Origin: a virus | IMG/VR virus record: IMGVR_UViG_3300025120_000600 | Span: 1 to 22,803 of that record | Length of the DNA stretch: 22,803 nt | Direction: 5' to 3' (one strand) | In this document: positions 99 to 21,954 of the stretch, piece after piece | Layout of the letters: every line of letters starts with the position of its first letter | Position numbering within the stretch: position 1 is the first letter of the stretch | Made by a program: the position numbers and the translations under genes | Notes under the pieces: generated by a model | Told to the model about the DNA's origin: nothing | Seen by the model: only the letters and a program-made list of their open reading frames with translations | Databases searched by the model: none

Positions 99-479
99 CT
101 ATTCGTATTTAAAATTATCTTCAAAATCTCTTAAAAGTAAATTACCTTTAAGATATGCTTCCATTTCCATTTTTCTCATATGATCATCATCTTGAGCGTA
201 TGTAGGTGAAGAAGCATCACCTAATTTAAGATCACCTCTTTCATTTTGTATATGGTGTATCATTTCATGACAATATGATCTTAATATGTCTTTATTGTGT
301 CTACCAGTAACAAATAAAACTATTGTTTGTGTGTTAGGAGCATAATAAGCTGTTCTACCAAACAGTTTTTCAGCGTTATCTTCGTCTTGACGTAAGATAA
401 GTTTAGGCGCTTTTTGGATATCGTATTTTTCCTTAGCGTCTAAGTATAATTCTTTTAATGCTCCTTTAAAATCTAACAT
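99..479 (-). CDS. Small zincin-like putative metallopeptidase (HExxH)
   Basis: This 126-residue protein has a zinc-metallopeptidase signature HEMIH at residues 71-75, preceded by a short hydrophobic strand (TIVLFVTG, 52-59). A Glu-rich helix EMEAY follows, in which Glu105 or Glu107 could be the third metal ligand. The layout resembles minimal SprT/ImmA-type zincins, but I cannot place it in a named family. No signal peptide or membrane segment is visible, so it probably acts in the cytoplasm or in the virion. The start ATG overlaps the stop of the preceding gene by one base (TAATG), and a putative holin follows. That position would suit a lysis or late maturation role, which is inference only. 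Catalytic function is plausible because both His and the Glu are intact. Confidence 0.7.
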   Translation of the reverse strand: MLDFKGALKELYLDAKEKYDIQKAPKLILRQDEDNAEKLFGRTAYYAPNTQTIVLFVTGRHNKDILRSYCHEMIHHIQNERGDLKLGDASSPTYAQDDDHMRKMEMEAYLKGNLLLRDFEDNFKYE

Positions 480-904
480 TATGCTTCTGGTTCTTCTTCA
501 GCTGGTTCTTCAGCTGGTTCGTCTGTAGGTGTGTCTGTTGGTTCTGTGTCTCCAGTTTCGCCTGTTTCTTCTTCTCCGCCCATTTGTGGGTCCGTTAGTA
601 ATTTATTTATTTGTTTTATTGCTAGGTTTTTTTCTTCTATATCACCTAAAAAATATTTTTTACCACCTATTTTTACCATTAATGAAAATTGTTCTAAATA
701 AATCATAAATGAAGTCCCATTTACTAAACGAACTTCATATGAAGGTGGAACAGTATTTGCTGCTTTTAATCCTTTTACATATCTAATAAGTGGACTTAAT
801 CTTAAATCTAATTTTAAAGCATCTACAATTTCTGGTGGTGCAGGATATTTTTCCTCCATTAAGGTAGAAATTGTTTTTTTAATGTGTTCTCTAAGTTGTT
901 TCAT
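479..904 (-). CDS. Unknown protein with N-terminal amphipathic helix and acidic tail
   Basis: This 141-residue protein is not assigned to a family. Residues 3-18 form an amphipathic helix (LREHIKKTISTLMEE) like those at the start of three other proteins in the window. The middle (about 45-105) alternates hydrophobic strands with charged turns (YEVRLVNGTSFMIYLEQF) and looks like a small folded beta domain. The last 30 residues are almost entirely Glu, Thr, Pro and Asp, a disordered acidic tail that includes a duplicated PAEE unit. It overlaps its upstream neighbour by one base at TAATG and is itself followed by a TAATG overlap. The helix plus acidic tail would suit a scaffold-associated or internal virion protein, but no function is shown. 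Confidence 0.65.
   Translation of the reverse strand: MKQLREHIKKTISTLMEEKYPAPPEIVDALKLDLRLSPLIRYVKGLKAANTVPPSYEVRLVNGTSFMIYLEQFSLMVKIGGKKYFLGDIEEKNLAIKQINKLLTDPQMGGEEETGETGDTEPTDTPTDEPAEEPAEEEPEA
494..517. repeat. Short tandem repeat (2 x 12 bp) in the acidic-tail coding region
   Basis: The 12-mer TTCTTCAGCTGG occurs twice head to tail (494-505 and 506-517). It encodes the repeated Pro-Ala-Glu-Glu unit in the C-terminal acidic tail of the gene at 479-904. It is a minor in-frame duplication whose copy number could vary without disturbing the frame. Confidence 0.6.
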
Positions 905-2644: not shown

Positions 2645-2884
2645 TTAAAATTTTGTCATTTTAGTTCTATTAGGATTAGAAAAAGCTGGTTCATGTTTAT
2701 AATGACCTCCATCACCCCCATATATGCTTTTATTTGTATAATTTTCTATTTCATCTTTATCATCAGCAAAAGGTCTAGGAGAGGTAATATTATTACCATC
2801 TGTGGCGTTTCCACCACTACTACCCGTACCCATGTATTCTTGAATAGTGGTTCTGATTAATTCTCTAAGACCCTTCTTTGTCAT
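2645..2884 (-). CDS. Small protein with capsid-targeting-like N-terminal helix
   Basis: This 79-residue protein begins with the amphipathic helix LRELIRTTIQE at residues 6-16. A Gly/Ser/Asn-rich, probably disordered remainder follows, ending in a basic stretch. The helix ends in I-Q-E, which matches the (L/I)-x-E cleavage rule of the T4 prohead protease gp21. The layout therefore resembles T4 internal proteins and small core proteins with a removable capsid-targeting sequence. Its start lies inside the end of the upstream gene (20-nt overlap, different frame), and its stop is 1 nt before the next start. It has no Shine-Dalgarno sequence. A packaged or core peptide is a reasonable guess, not a demonstrated role. 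Confidence 0.65.
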   Translation of the reverse strand: MTKKGLRELIRTTIQEYMGTGSSGGNATDGNNITSPRPFADDKDEIENYTNKSIYGGDGGHYKHEPAFSNPNRTKMTKF

Positions 2885-3470
2885 TTAATTCTTTTTTTAA
2901 ATGTTCACGTCGTATTTTAGTAGCTTCTTTTACTTTTTGATTCCACTCTTTTTTATTAATACCACCATTCCATTTTTCAACTACACCATCTTCTGACACA
3001 AAACTTGAATTTGATGTGTTTATTGCATCTAATAAATATGACTCCATTTCATTTACTATATCAAGTGAATTTTTTACTTCAAGTTTTTTAATGTAATTTT
3101 TATATTCACCTTTATTTTTTAATTTATGTTCAAATTCTATAACACAATCATGACATTTTTTATGTATTTTATAATTTGGTTTATCTAATCTTTTTTTCAT
3201 TATTTTACCACAACAAGGACAACTTAAAGGCATAAAAACCTCTTTTTTAATTATATCTAATTTTGATACTGTTTGTTTAATACCATTTTTAATTGTCCAT
3301 GTTTTTCTTCCTTCTATCCAAACATCGCCCTCTTTGTAATCTTTAGTTTCTTTTTTGTAACCTATTTGTATACCCGTAGACGCATTTGCTTTACCCTTTA
3401 TTAGGTTACGCATTCTATTTACGTCTGTTTGTTTAAACTCTTTATTTAATCCTTGTACTTTTTGTTTCAT
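2865..3470 (-). CDS. Zinc-ribbon-like protein of unknown function
   Basis: This 201-residue basic protein has two Cys-x2-Cys knuckles, C84-C87 (within CPCCGK) and C106-C109 (CHDC), spaced as in a zinc ribbon. An N-terminal segment contains GDVWIEGRKTWTIKNG (48-63), probably a small beta unit. The C-terminal third is helical and Lys/Glu-rich. Zinc ribbons of this type often bind nucleic acid or stabilise small phage proteins, but nothing here identifies a target. The last 20 nt overlap the next gene in another frame, so the two are probably translationally coupled. It lies 8 nt after the preceding stop. It could be a transcription or packaging accessory, or a nuclease relative lacking visible catalytic residues. 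Confidence 0.65.
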   Translation of the reverse strand: MKQKVQGLNKEFKQTDVNRMRNLIKGKANASTGIQIGYKKETKDYKEGDVWIEGRKTWTIKNGIKQTVSKLDIIKKEVFMPLSCPCCGKIMKKRLDKPNYKIHKKCHDCVIEFEHKLKNKGEYKNYIKKLEVKNSLDIVNEMESYLLDAINTSNSSFVSEDGVVEKWNGGINKKEWNQKVKEATKIRREHLKKELNDKEGS

Positions 3471-4310: not shown

Positions 4311-6140
4311 TTAAAAATCTGAGGCCATACCTCCTAATATAAATTTTCCAGTGATTTTAAAAGGAACTTTAGATATGCTTTCATCCCTAATTACTACACC
4401 TTCGTGTTTGTCAGCGGAACCCATAGGTGAATCTAATACTTTAAGTACTTCATCTCCTAATTTTTCAGTTGCAAGATACGTTGTAAATCCTTGTACTGCT
4501 TTTTTTCTGTCTTCAGCGTCGTCAAACAATCCATCTATGTTTTCTCCATTAAGAATAGCTAGATAAACTTGTTTAGATACAGCGCCTACTTTTTTATTAT
4601 TTACAGTACTACTGTCTGGTTTGTATCCTACGTTCATAAATATAAAATCTTCTTCAGGGATATTGTCTAGTGAATTTAACCACTGTCCTAAAGATTTTGT
4701 TTCTGACGATTCACCTGAATTAACTGTGTAATTTTTAGACAACGCGCTACTAAAATTAGGTTTATTTTTTAATTCTGTAGGTACAGATCCATAAACTTCG
4801 TAGCCTCTTTTTTTAGCTGTAGGTTTTAAGTTGTTTAATAATGATTGTAAATCATCTTTGCTGTAAGATACTTCTGAAGACACTCGTTTAGTTAATGGTC
4901 CTCTTTTACCTTGTACTTCTTTACTTTCTATTTTATTTAAACCATGAATTGCAATAAAATTAGAACCATAATCTTGTACGTTTGTTTTTCCACTAACATA
5001 CTCCATATTAAATAGTATGTTTGGGTCATCAAATGCACCTAATTTTCTAAGATCATTTTGAATAGCAGGTAATGCTTCATTAAACATATCTAATACTTCT
5101 CCTCCTATTTTAACCATTCCATGACCTTTACCAAATCTAGCTAGTAAATCATCCTTTGTAATTCCTTTTAAATCAAGTTCTTTTTTAGAACCTCTATCCA
5201 TTACAAATTGTTTTTTACCATCTACATCTATTAGTCTAATAGAACTATTTACACCGTCTATTTTTATAGCACCTGGTTTTTTATCTAATGAGTCAGCTGA
5301 CTTTTCAAATACATCTAATAATGATTTACCATTGTTTACATTTGGTAAATTAAATGGGTGGGCCATGTGCCCTGCTGCTCCACCTTCTGTTAGTAGTATT
5401 TCATTGATAATTTCTTTCCACCATGCTTTAGTGAATGTAGCTTCTTTTTTCATTCGTTTAGTTTTTCTTTTTAAAGTGCCTTTTAAATAATCAGGTACTT
5501 CCATATACTGATCTCCTTGTTTAGCTGTGTCTTTTTTAAGACGTTTAAGATTTTTAGCATGTTTAGCTTTTTCTTGATTATTCATTGTACCCATCATCAT
5601 TTCTTCTAATGATGAAACTAATTCCCATGCTCTATCTTTTTGTTCGTCTTCTAAAAAATTAGGAATAAATTTTTGAAATAATTCTTTATTACCATTTTTA
5701 ATAAATTCTCTCATTTTAGTACCTGACACACCTCCTGCTTGGGGTGGTACTAAAGTTGTTTCAAATTTAATTCCTCTTGGTTCTGCAAATTTATTAATGT
5801 TTTTAAAACGAGCGTCATTTATATCTTTTTCACCCATTCCTAAATAAATTGTAGATTCTTCAGGGGCTTCATTTTCTACAAAATCATACACGTCTTGTAC
5901 TGGGGAATTTGAATTTGAAGCTACTACTGTTATTTTTTTAGAAATTGGATCTGGATCATTATTAAGATAAAGATCCCATAATTGTAAAGAAATTTCTCTT
6001 GTAATACCATCTCGCTCTTTAGCACCAATTTTTACTATTACATTTTTAGCATCAGTATTTTGAGCTAACCATATAGCCATATTATAATGACCAGCATGGG
6101 GAGGTTTAAATCCTCCAGGTAAAAGCGCGATTCTTTCCAT
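4311..6140 (-). CDS. Fused nucleotidylyltransferase (HxGH) and ATP/NTP-dependent ligase-like protein
   Basis: This 609-residue protein joins two nucleotidyl-transfer folds. Residues 1-160 form a cytidylyltransferase/NMN-adenylyltransferase-type domain. It opens with LLPGGFKPPHAGH (the HxGH site is H15/H18) and closes with SGTKMR (139-144), the equivalent of the ISxTxxR motif. A basic linker follows, then a helix KAWWKEIINEILLTE (238-252). Residues 255-609 look like the covalent nucleotidyltransferase/ligase superfamily, with KIDG (nucleophile K293), NMEY (motif III-like, E380), FIAIHG (IIIa-like), EGVVIR (motif IV, 580-585) and FKITGK (motif V-like, 594-599). RNA or DNA ligation, end repair or cofactor salvage are all possible. 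The substrate cannot be read from the sequence. It is the first gene after the 17-bp intergenic element. Confidence 0.8.
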   Translation of the reverse strand: MERIALLPGGFKPPHAGHYNMAIWLAQNTDAKNVIVKIGAKERDGITREISLQLWDLYLNNDPDPISKKITVVASNSNSPVQDVYDFVENEAPEESTIYLGMGEKDINDARFKNINKFAEPRGIKFETTLVPPQAGGVSGTKMREFIKNGNKELFQKFIPNFLEDEQKDRAWELVSSLEEMMMGTMNNQEKAKHAKNLKRLKKDTAKQGDQYMEVPDYLKGTLKRKTKRMKKEATFTKAWWKEIINEILLTEGGAAGHMAHPFNLPNVNNGKSLLDVFEKSADSLDKKPGAIKIDGVNSSIRLIDVDGKKQFVMDRGSKKELDLKGITKDDLLARFGKGHGMVKIGGEVLDMFNEALPAIQNDLRKLGAFDDPNILFNMEYVSGKTNVQDYGSNFIAIHGLNKIESKEVQGKRGPLTKRVSSEVSYSKDDLQSLLNNLKPTAKKRGYEVYGSVPTELKNKPNFSSALSKNYTVNSGESSETKSLGQWLNSLDNIPEEDFIFMNVGYKPDSSTVNNKKVGAVSKQVYLAILNGENIDGLFDDAEDRKKAVQGFTTYLATEKLGDEVLKVLDSPMGSADKHEGVVIRDESISKVPFKITGKFILGGMASDF

Positions 6141-6172: not shown

Positions 6173-7096
6173 TTACGACAAGGCTAATTTCTTTTTCATT
6201 AACACAGAAGCTGTTAATTTTGTCGCATTGTGTAATAATTTTGTGAAAGCTTCAAAACCTAATTCAGATGGGTCTTTATCATCCATTTCTATAAGATAAA
6301 CTTTTTTTCCGTAGCCCATAAGTGTTTCAGCGTGTTTAAAAGCATCTTTAAGAGCATCTTCATCTAAAGCAAGATATATTTTTTTAACATTTGATTTAAT
6401 TATTTGTTTCATTAAAGAATCAGAAATTCGTTTACCAAATAAAGGAATCGCATTACGTTTTATAGCCATTGCATCAAATGCACCTTCGCATAAAATAATG
6501 GGTAAATCCCAGTTTATATACATTTCGAACCCAATTATATCCTTGGTACTGGAAGCCAACTTATGTTTAATATACGCGTTTTTATCAAATGATCTACCAA
6601 CATAATAATTTAAAAAGCCATCTTTATCGTACGAAGGTATTACAACCATGTTTCTTAAGTCGCCTTGTTCGCAATAATGTAAATCATACTTAACTACATC
6701 TTGGGGTGTGATTCCTCGTTGATTTAAATAATGTAGCGCGTGTTTCGACAATATCGCTGAAGACGACATAATAGGCGTTACTCCCGATGGTAATTGCAAG
6801 GAACCCGATGGTACTTTAACTGTAGTTTGTTTTCTAAAACTGTATTGAGAGTCAATGTCTTTTAAAATTTCGTATGCTTTTGGTGATGCACTTACTGCTT
6901 TAAGTAGTTTGAATGCTCTGTGTCCTTTATAACCACAAACCCAACATTGGAATTTTTGGGTTGATAAATTTAGGGTTAATTTTTTCTTATGGTGGTTGCA
7001 AGAAGGACAAGTAAATACAGCTTCATCTCCTCCACGAGCTGACTTACTTTTACCTAAAATTGATTCTAATAACTGTTTTAATAAATCTTCTTTCAT
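6173..7096 (-). CDS. DnaG/T4 gp61-type DNA primase
   Basis: This 307-residue protein would make RNA primers for phage DNA replication together with the replicative helicase. The N-terminus carries a zinc ribbon with C30-x2-C33 and C51-x2-C54 (CPSC and CWVC). A primase core containing a Toprim domain follows: the acidic motif CEGAFDA has Glu204, and LALDEDA has Asp245 and Asp247, the metal-binding residues. At about 300 residues it is short, like T4 gp61, and lacks the long helicase-binding C-terminus of bacterial DnaG. Its ATG overlaps the stop of the GIY-YIG gene (ATGA). Its local base composition is visibly less AT-rich than the flanking structural genes. A replication gene between structural blocks is notable. 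Confidence 0.87.
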   Translation of the reverse strand: MKEDLLKQLLESILGKSKSARGGDEAVFTCPSCNHHKKKLTLNLSTQKFQCWVCGYKGHRAFKLLKAVSASPKAYEILKDIDSQYSFRKQTTVKVPSGSLQLPSGVTPIMSSSAILSKHALHYLNQRGITPQDVVKYDLHYCEQGDLRNMVVIPSYDKDGFLNYYVGRSFDKNAYIKHKLASSTKDIIGFEMYINWDLPIILCEGAFDAMAIKRNAIPLFGKRISDSLMKQIIKSNVKKIYLALDEDALKDAFKHAETLMGYGKKVYLIEMDDKDPSELGFEAFTKLLHNATKLTASVLMKKKLALS

Positions 7097-7521
7097 CTAA
7101 AGTCTCTATCGTAAAACTTACCTAATATATTATCATTAAGATATTTTTTATCTTCTAAAACCTCTAATATAAATTGGTATTTGCATTCTAGGTATGTAAG
7201 TTCTTTTTTATTATAAGCCACTTGTAAAATTGTTCTTTCCAAATCATCATCATTTGCATCTTTAATAAACGCATGTGATCCATAGTAAGTTTTCCAATCG
7301 CTTTCCTTTAATACTCTTTTGTATACTGGTGGACGACCTTTACCTTCCCATAGGGCTTTTTCTTTTTTACCTAATTTTTTCTTTAAATTATAAATTAAAG
7401 ACTTTTTACCAATGTATCTCTTTCCTGTTGGAATGTGAGTTGTTTGATAAATGAAACCAAATGCTCCTTCTGGGAGGTCACTTATTTCATTAATTTGTTT
7501 GTTTTGATAGTACCATTGCAT
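7093..7521 (-). CDS. GIY-YIG endonuclease-like protein (SegE type)
   Basis: This protein of about 142 residues resembles the SegE-type GIY-YIG family of T4-like phages. The signature reads GFIY then YIG, about 13 residues apart, near the N-terminus. It is followed by KTYYGS, a conserved Glu in TYLECKYQF and Asn residues in YLNDN, all expected of the fold. Such proteins cut DNA as free-standing homing endonucleases or act in DNA processing. I place the start at the ATG at 7521 rather than the GTG at 7527. It is two codons downstream, puts the GIY motif at the usual distance and uses the common start codon. The gene ends in an ATGA overlap with the primase, so the two form a small replication or mobile pair inside tail genes. 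Confidence 0.77.
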   Translation of the reverse strand: MQWYYQNKQINEISDLPEGAFGFIYQTTHIPTGKRYIGKKSLIYNLKKKLGKKEKALWEGKGRPPVYKRVLKESDWKTYYGSHAFIKDANDDDLERTILQVAYNKKELTYLECKYQFILEVLEDKKYLNDNILGKFYDRDFR

Positions 7522-7544
7522 ATACACAATGTACGAAGGCTATT

Positions 7545-21519: not shown

Positions 21520-21954
21520 TTATCTTCCTTTTTTCTTATCTATTGCTTTCATTAAACCACTATAATTTCTTGTAACAGCATTTGCTACTGAATCAGGCAT
21601 TCCTGTTGTATCCATAGGTAACGGAGCTCCTGTTGCAAAAGGTTGAGCCATACTTACAGGTGATTGAGCTGTTTGTGTATTAGTATTACCCATTGCTGTT
21701 TCATTTAGTAAATCATTTAATGTATTATTGCTTACAAAATTTTGTTTTTGTTTAATAGGTTTTTTACCCATTATTTTTTCTTTTAAAGATGATTGTTGTG
21801 GAACTTCAACTTTTCTTTCAGTGTGTTCTACTATAGTTGGTTTAAGTTCATCACGTAAATCTTCTTTAAGTGATTTAATTTCTCTGCGTAACGCATAATC
21901 GATTTCTTCTCTAACTACTTTTCTAATTAGACTTTCAAAAGTTTTTGCTTTCAT
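21520..21954 (-). CDS. Small basic protein with N-terminal amphipathic helix, beside gp25
   Basis: This 144-residue protein is not assigned to a family. Residues 4-55 form a long, highly charged helix (FESLIRKVVREEIDYALRRE onward) that begins with the I-R-x-V-V-R-E-E pattern shared with several proteins in the window. Residues 65-125 are Gln/Asn/Thr/Pro-rich and probably disordered. A final short helix (NYSGLMKAIDKKKGR) is basic. It is the first gene after the 17-bp element at 21969 and is followed by gp25-like after 3 nt, so it likely belongs to the baseplate block. It could be an assembly factor or a minor virion component carrying a targeting helix. I see no enzymatic residues. Confidence 0.65.
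   Translation of the reverse strand: MKAKTFESLIRKVVREEIDYALRREIKSLKEDLRDELKPTIVEHTERKVEVPQQSSLKEKIMGKKPIKQKQNFVSNNTLNDLLNETAMGNTNTQTAQSPVSMAQPFATGAPLPMDTTGMPDSVANAVTRNYSGLMKAIDKKKGR

Follow-up and report, generated by a model that had tools for sequence, protein, structure and literature searches.

Why would a phage join, in one polypeptide, a HIGH-type adenylyltransferase and a domain that resembles the catalytic part of nucleic acid ligases? This question is raised by a gene of the IMG/VR record IMGVR_UViG_3300025120_000600, a 22.8 kb fragment of an uncultured tailed phage which, in its whole length, is referred to here as the window. The sequence-only reading of this DNA had placed the fusion at 4311-6140, and the open reading frame is confirmed there, with the minus strand as the coding one (the plus strand has no open frame over this interval, with stops throughout) and a product of 609 aa. 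The motifs that it listed (HAGH, SGTKMR, KIDG, NMEY, EGVVIR and FKITGK) are each found where it had located them (Table 1), and in 20,000 shuffles of the fusion protein that kept its composition they never occurred in order. Since homologues of the fusion protein, both near-identical and diverged, occur in independent contigs, and since the two domains are under purifying selection (dN/dS of ~0.08-0.2 for the C-terminal domain and of 0.08-0.4 for the N-terminal one), the frame is a real gene. An assembly artefact was ruled out, given that the same fusion is seen across many independent contigs.

Table 1. Features of the fusion gene and of its neighbours in the window (residues are those of the fusion protein; the arrow marks the predicted cut)
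Feature	Residues	Positions	Strand	Basis or remarks
Fusion ORF: HIGH-type adenylyltransferase domain and ligase-type nucleotidyltransferase domain (putative)	609 aa	4311..6140	-	ATG at 6140, stop at 4311
N-terminal domain, NMNAT-like HIGH-superfamily fold	1-180	5601..6140	-	AF2, Foldseek, weak NCBIfam/Pfam matches
HAGH	15-18	6087..6098	-	H18 invariant; H15 and G17 vary in sister group
SGTKMR	139-144	5709..5726	-	S, G, T and R invariant
Linker	181-251	5388..5600	-	Insertion place of variable modules in longer relatives
LTE↓GG, domain boundary	250-254	5379..5393	-	Fits the L/I-X-E rule of the T4-type prohead protease; cleavage predicted
C-terminal domain, ligase-type covalent nucleotidyltransferase-like	257-609	4314..5372	-	
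GHMAHPF signature	257-263	5352..5372	-	H258 and H261 invariant
Motif I, KIDG, predicted nucleotidylated Lys293	293-296	5253..5264	-	Invariant in 79 rows; T4 Rnl1/Rnl2 register
Motif III, NMEY (E380)	378-381	4998..5009	-	Alignment of C-terminal domains, Rnl1 profile
Motif IIIa-like, FIAIHGLN	395-402	4935..4958	-	
Motif IV, EGVVIR (E580)	580-585	4386..4403	-	
Motif V, FKITGK (K595)	594-599	4344..4361	-	Usual KxK has Thr at the second Lys
Zn-ribbon protein, downstream neighbour		2865..3470	-	No Pfam family, marginal PHROG matches only
DnaG-like (Zn-ribbon and Toprim) primase, upstream neighbour		6173..7096	-	
SegE-type GIY-YIG protein, upstream		7093-7527	-	PHROG 447, labelled 'NAD synthetase'

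Relatives and domain architectures

A scan of IMG/VR with the single sequence gave 45 loci; with an alignment of the C-terminal domain, more than 500 stretches were confirmed and 80 of them retained. These form clade A, the clade of the window. A second one, clade B, with more than 570 relatives, was reached via the Microcystis phage Mel-JY01 and two uncultured jumbo-phage records, and both clades are clearly homologous (hhalign E 2.5e-12). No relatives were found in the bacterial and archaeal genome contigs scanned. The C-terminal domain belongs to a virus-only set of three clades, the third of which, the DUF6267 domain of cyanophages, is joined to the other two on weaker evidence.

Within clade A, there are fusions of 609 aa like that of the window, fusions of 550-650 aa whose HxGH domain is more distant, forms as long as 770-1480 aa in which additional modules separate the two ends, and stand-alone C-terminal domains of 350-365 aa, while in a genome of 180 kb (L091) the two domains are encoded by separate adjacent genes. 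Three relatives (L010, L014 and L023) have a C-terminal domain 72-81% identical to that of the window and an N-terminal domain only 42-46% identical, so the adenylyltransferase module is swapped for another of the same type, and not lost. The modules between the constant ends change among the long relatives (L006-L023 and L053-L079) and include DUF192, SET, HAD-like (DFDDT), DUF6973-like and, below threshold, RegB-like ones. A HAD 3'-phosphatase was ruled out as a fixed third part, its motif being found in 9 of 83 clade A fusions. In L047 (5440-7097), the C-terminal domain is split over two overlapping frames, which reflects either a frameshift or an assembly error.

The N-terminal domain: an NMNAT-like adenylyltransferase fold

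The AF2 model of the N-terminal domain (pLDDT 91.5) matches NadD, NadM and CoaD in the PDB (Foldseek, best E 1.6e-6), and both the [HT]xGH and the SxTxxR motifs of the HIGH superfamily of nucleotidylyltransferases lie on its Rossmann-type fold. The cytidylyltransferase/NMNAT-type domain recognised from the sequence is therefore borne out, with NMN/NaMN adenylyltransferases as the closest members of the superfamily, and the SGTxxR motif fits NMNAT rather than CoaD. Family models give only weak matches: the domain falls under every cut-off of the NCBIfam models for NMN/NaMN adenylyltransferases (the best being TIGR00482, with 18 bits vs 112), Pfam gives only a sub-threshold match to CTP_transf_like at the N-terminus of the fusion, and PHROGs gives weak matches of the fusion protein to 'cytidyltransferase'. 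The balance tips slightly towards NMN or NaMN as the substrate. The domain shares with NadM, NadD and NadR the fold, the [HT]xGH and the SGTxxR motifs, but, unlike them, it has no Nudix or kinase partner, its sister groups carry GxHH and most of the genomes lack NAMPT.

Were both active sites as intact as they had seemed in the window? K293 and E380 of the C-terminal domain are indeed invariant, whereas the complete HxGH is not: in 72 rows of the N-terminal domain, H18, S139, G140, T141 and R144 are invariant and H15 and G17 are not, and GxHH stands in place of HxGH in most of clade B and in roughly one third of the clade A proteins. The last His of the motif is kept in this change (L025-L044, L002 and clade B). 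HxGH domains also occur in other company. In the phage immuto (L003, 7125-9845), one is joined to a Pol-beta-like start (GSVKAGSKADFGDLDIIV), and in L116 (9280-11238) another is attached to a possible degenerate nucleotidyltransferase (ENLDGS) and adjoins the stand-alone clade B domain of that locus.

The C-terminal domain: a probable, divergent ligase-type nucleotidyltransferase

Seven residues (K293, D295, G296, N298, E380, E580 and K595) are invariant in 79 distinct C-terminal domains, and they include, in order, the KxDG Lys, the motif III Glu, the motif IV Glu and the motif V Lys of the superfamily of covalent nucleotidyltransferases. H258 and H261, from a new N-terminal signature (GHMxHPF), are invariant in the same set, and an H-x-x-H is also present at the start of the clade B and DUF6267 domains.

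Structural searches were less decisive. With the AF2 model of the C-terminal domain (pLDDT 87.8), Foldseek gave no PDB match below E 1e-3; the matches at E 0.05-0.6 comprise T4 Rnl1, an archaeal RNA ligase, a Naegleria ligase, TbREL1 and DNA ligases, plus unrelated proteins, with GMP synthase and DnaK also among the top ones. In the structure check that had been proposed, the N-terminal half matched NadD, NadM and CoaD, and the C-terminal half reached ligases only at those E values. In BFVD, the domain strongly matches 'cytidyltransferase-like' proteins of uncultured phages, and a protein of Synechococcus phage S-PM2 with E 4.5e-4. PDB sequence searches with the fusion protein and with the C-terminal domain profile gave only chance matches (an ATP synthase subunit and a thymidylate kinase), and Pfam has no match over this domain in the window protein.

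Among the profiles compared with Rnl1 and Rnl2 against shuffles, the one combining clades A and B stood out. It aligns with an Rnl1 profile of 37 sequences at E 0.0027 (hhalign), with the motif I Lys and the motif III Glu in register with those of T4 Rnl1, and this was equalled by none of 60 column shuffles; with Rnl2, E was 0.03 and motif I was in register. As a yardstick, Rnl1 compared in the same setting with Rnl2, its known homologue, reaches only E 2.5e-4. The clade B profile alone was no better than shuffles against Rnl1 and Rnl2 (4/60 and 8/60 as good).

The order of motifs I, III, IIIa, IV and V is common to the C-terminal domain and to T4 RNA ligases 1 and 2 (Rnl1, PF09511; Rnl2, PF09414). 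Unlike them, the domain has no Pfam match, its motif V reads KxT, it is fused to an HxGH domain and it lacks a family-specific C-terminal domain: the chain stops ~14 aa past motif V, with no recognisable OB or ligase domain. Moreover, motifs III and IV are separated by ~200 residues, vs 68 in Rnl1 and 105 in Rnl2. With regard to LigA, neither domain Ia nor PF01653 is recognised in the window protein by Pfam, and one clade B member shows a weak LigA match, covering motif I only.

The ligase-type assignment of the sequence-only reading thus holds, as that of a divergent member, on the basis of motifs, invariance and the profile comparison with Rnl1 and Rnl2. These lend moderate support, short of proof, to its placement in the covalent nucleotidyltransferase superfamily, and a covalent Lys293-AMP intermediate is to be expected with good confidence. 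The opposite reading, in which the ligase-like motifs are due to chance or descent in a protein that is not a nucleotidyltransferase, agrees with the failure to match any solved structure confidently, but it is highly improbable in view of the invariance of seven motif residues across 79 sequences, the in-register profile match and the strong constraint on the domain.

Coupling of the two domains and the reversed fusion with DUF6267

How constant is the association of both domains? Among the fetched loci (closely related and overlapping contigs included), clade A comprises 97 fusions with the HxGH domain first, four cases with a separate HxGH-bearing gene and five uncut frames with none seen; the respective figures for clade B are 50 fused, one adjacent and three uncut with none seen, and for DUF6267 they are 55 fused with the HxGH domain last, 67 in adjacent genes and two uncut with none seen. 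The exceptions are thus about ten among the uncut frames of the three clades, and in L029-L031 the C-terminal domain is present and no HxGH domain is seen nearby. Both parts stay together in hundreds of phages of marine and fresh waters. The pairing recurs in three divergent clades, with either domain first or with the two in neighbouring genes, and it gives the functional coupling that had been suggested far stronger support than the sequence by itself could. That the fusion is unusual, as had also been said, is not supported: uncultured marine phages commonly carry it, and in S-PM2 it is found in reversed order. It is a real architecture, not an artefact, and it is undescribed in the literature searched, where no NMNAT-ligase fusion and nothing on 'cytitidyltransferase' or DUF6267 was found.

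The reversed form is represented by S-PM2d138 (591 aa), in which a DUF6267 domain (Pfam E 1.6e-111) that bears KWDG and PEGFVAIVDGKAVKI precedes a TxGH adenylyltransferase domain. In most other cyanophages both parts are adjacent genes, annotated for example as 'hypothetical' and 'cytitidyltransferase' in P-HM1, and DUF6267 (PF19782; cyanophages, T4-GC 71) is found either beside that gene or fused with it. DUF6267 resembles the C-terminal domain of the window in the N-terminal HxxH, the KxDG, EG.V and K motifs, the long distance between motifs III and IV and the coupling with HxGH, and differs from clades A and B in the domain order, in having D instead of E in motif III and in giving no significant direct sequence match. 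Indeed, the direct comparison of the clade A and DUF6267 profiles failed (36/60 shuffles as good), that of clades A and B with DUF6267 gave E 0.12 (7/60 as good), and Pfam found no PF19782 match in the clade A and B genomes; against Rnl1, DUF6267 has motifs IV and V in register at E 0.02-0.05. None of 15 genome records, a small sample picked for having one of them, contains both DUF6267 and a clade A or B domain. A common origin is nonetheless proposed because of the fold match in BFVD, the HxxH...KxDG...EG...K layout, the long III-IV spacing and the same partner; the link is weak by sequence and draws mainly on the fold match (E 4.5e-4).

Genomic context

In 43 of the 89 clade A loci, the gene directly upstream belongs to the family of the DnaG-like primase. 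Downstream, the Zn-ribbon gene is conserved in 56 of these 89 loci and in 73 of the 75 from clade B, jumbo-phage records included. The label 'NAD synthetase' of PHROG 447, which is also borne by a protein of the Flavobacterium phage immuto (L003), is probably a propagated mis-annotation. Beyond the primase and GIY-YIG genes, the window encodes baseplate proteins, and clade A and B genes also adjoin tail and terminase genes. S-PM2d138, in turn, is surrounded by gp43, UvsX, gp41, MazG, gp61 and NrdA.

Fifteen records, some of which are fragments whose absences are not proof, were searched for related functions: NAMPT, an ATP-type DNA ligase and an NAD-type ligase domain were found in 1/15 each, RNA_ligase above cut-off in 3/15, the Rnl1 family in 2/15 and a T4-type prohead protease in 13/15. 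The complete genomes of S-PM2 and P-HM1 have none of the searched ligase families. PADLOC found nothing, and a scan for promoters and terminators was uninformative.

What would the fusion do?

The preferred reading, tentative as a whole and somewhat short of probable, is that of a virus-specific two-part nucleotidyl-transfer enzyme, devoted to end joining and to the making or recycling of the donor. The second part (aa 257-609), a minimal ligase-type nucleotidyltransferase akin to T4 RNA ligase, would form Lys293-AMP and pass the AMP to a 5'-phosphate end, sealing a break in DNA or RNA in the course of replication or repair by the phage. The first part (aa 1-180), a HIGH-superfamily adenylyltransferase of the NMN/NaMN type, would make or regenerate a dinucleotide donor, turning the NMN released by NAD+ use, with ATP, into NAD+. 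The joining of nucleic acids by the fusion enzyme is an even call, and the recycling of NAD+ between both parts is doubtful. Of the roles suggested by the sequence-only reading, NAD-linked end repair and RNA repair are still conjectural. The two-part reading fits the replication neighbours (the primase in clade A and the replication genes around S-PM2d138) and the scarcity of DNA-ligase families and of NAMPT in the 15 records; against it stand the missing PDB match of the C-terminal domain below E 1e-3, the Thr in place of the second Lys of motif V, the tail and terminase neighbours, the loci L029-L031 and the weak sequence link of clades A and B to DUF6267. Ordinary NAD+ salvage is argued against by the lack of NAMPT, since phage NadM is reported always to come with NAMPT/NadV (PMC9503650); the NMN set free when a ligation consumes NAD+ would be one supply at hand and would explain the pairing. 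The use of NAD+ is a guess, because the Ia domain with which LigA binds NAD+ is not recognisable here. Rnl-type enzymes usually take ATP as their donor, and ATP use, a capping reaction or independent functions of the two parts once cut apart are possible as well.

If joining is right, the family has a concrete gap to fill. Cyanomyoviruses are reported to lack the T4 gp30 DNA ligase, for which undetected distant homologues were named as one possibility and a true absence with use of the host ligase was judged more probable (PMC2984593). Clades A and B and DUF6267, which in the cyanophages examined sits in the replication block, are a candidate for this 'missing' ligase of marine T4-like phages. 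A bolder and unlikely version is that marine T4-like and related phages swapped the T4 DNA ligase for this unrecognised family and an NMN adenylyltransferase that is fused to it or encoded beside it. Such an NAD+-driven ligase would refuel itself, the NMN of each ligation being re-adenylylated on the spot. Beyond the ligase question, a probable catalytic fold is provided for a large group of phage proteins, Pfam DUF6267 included, whose labels so far are just 'cytidyltransferase' or 'unknown function', and, if the two active sites cooperate, this would be a new coupling of NAD metabolism to nucleic acid joining.

A rather unlikely alternative sees the fusion as a polyvalent-type precursor packaged in the phage head, where the prohead protease would cut at L/I-X-E↓GG, so that the domains act apart in the new host and their fusion reflects packaging, not joint catalysis. 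The boundary site LTE↓GG conforms to the processing site of T4-type head-packaged (CTS) proteins, T4 gp21 cleaving after L/I-X-E (PMC9026906); [LI]xE↓GG is present in 81/87 clade A and 50/72 clade B proteins (131/159), within a low-pLDDT stretch of the AF2 model, and 13 of the 15 records have the protease. Furthermore, the short leaders of stand-alone C-terminal domains end at such a site (MNLIKILLSE↓GG, MIKLKSL..SLLLE↓GG and MKFLKSYEEFLNENLILE↓GG), and a separate HxGH protein (L082) starts with MKTFEQYIKEN, similar to T4 capsid-targeting sequences. The variable modules of the long forms (DUF192, SET, GNAT-like) resemble the many unrelated enzymatic modules of polyvalent proteins (PMC5512222), but in the long relatives, unlike in these, two ends (HxGH and nucleotidyltransferase) stay constant while modules come and go. 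A term search of that text retrieved ATP-grasp RNA ligases, mentioned only generally, and no adenylyl- or cytidylyltransferases. In ~24 of the 159 proteins, GG is kept and preceded by M, C or D instead of E, which suggests a structural reason, and the DUF6267 clade, in its replication gene block, keeps the pairing without any site; cleavage is therefore not the whole story.

Could both parts work together in other ways? In a 5'-end modification, the HxGH domain would either place AMP or CMP on a 5'-phosphate or build a dinucleotide cap, and the ligase-type domain would transfer or remove the capped end. Nucleotide transfer to phosphates is the chemistry of both folds, capping enzymes also carry motifs I, III, IV and V, and a chain that ends ~14 residues past motif V without a recognisable OB or ligase domain is compatible with it. 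The profile match is, however, to RNA ligases, and no phosphatase or methyltransferase is a constant partner, which makes capping improbable. The NMNAT-like fold also recalls phage-encoded NadM and NadR, which serve to replenish NAD+ against NAD-depleting host defences (PMC9503650); the N-terminal domain would then be the working part, and the C-terminal one would modify NAD-derived metabolites instead of nucleic acids. This is quite improbable, as NAMPT/NadV is absent from 14 of the 15 records (some of them fragments), no Nudix or ribosyl-kinase fusion is seen and PADLOC was negative.

Other features of the locus

A small putative metallopeptidase (CHEMIHH; 99-479, minus strand) adjoins the locus, and in L070 (2944-6978) the C-terminal domain continues, in one fused protein, into a similar HExxH domain and a GNAT-like one. 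Several proteins of the window (479-904, 904-2643, 2645-2884 and 21520-21954, minus strand) have leaders that are alike and amphipathic, such as MTKKGLRELIRTTIQEY and MKKKDVIQLVKDAINE, and these are possibly capsid-targeting sequences. The C-terminus of the 904-2643 protein bears a tail, DDDIDNDGDVDKTDDYLKNRRKA, common to the PHROG 'cytidyltransferase' 764 and several phage families without assigned function, a recurrent acidic tail that is possibly Ca-binding.
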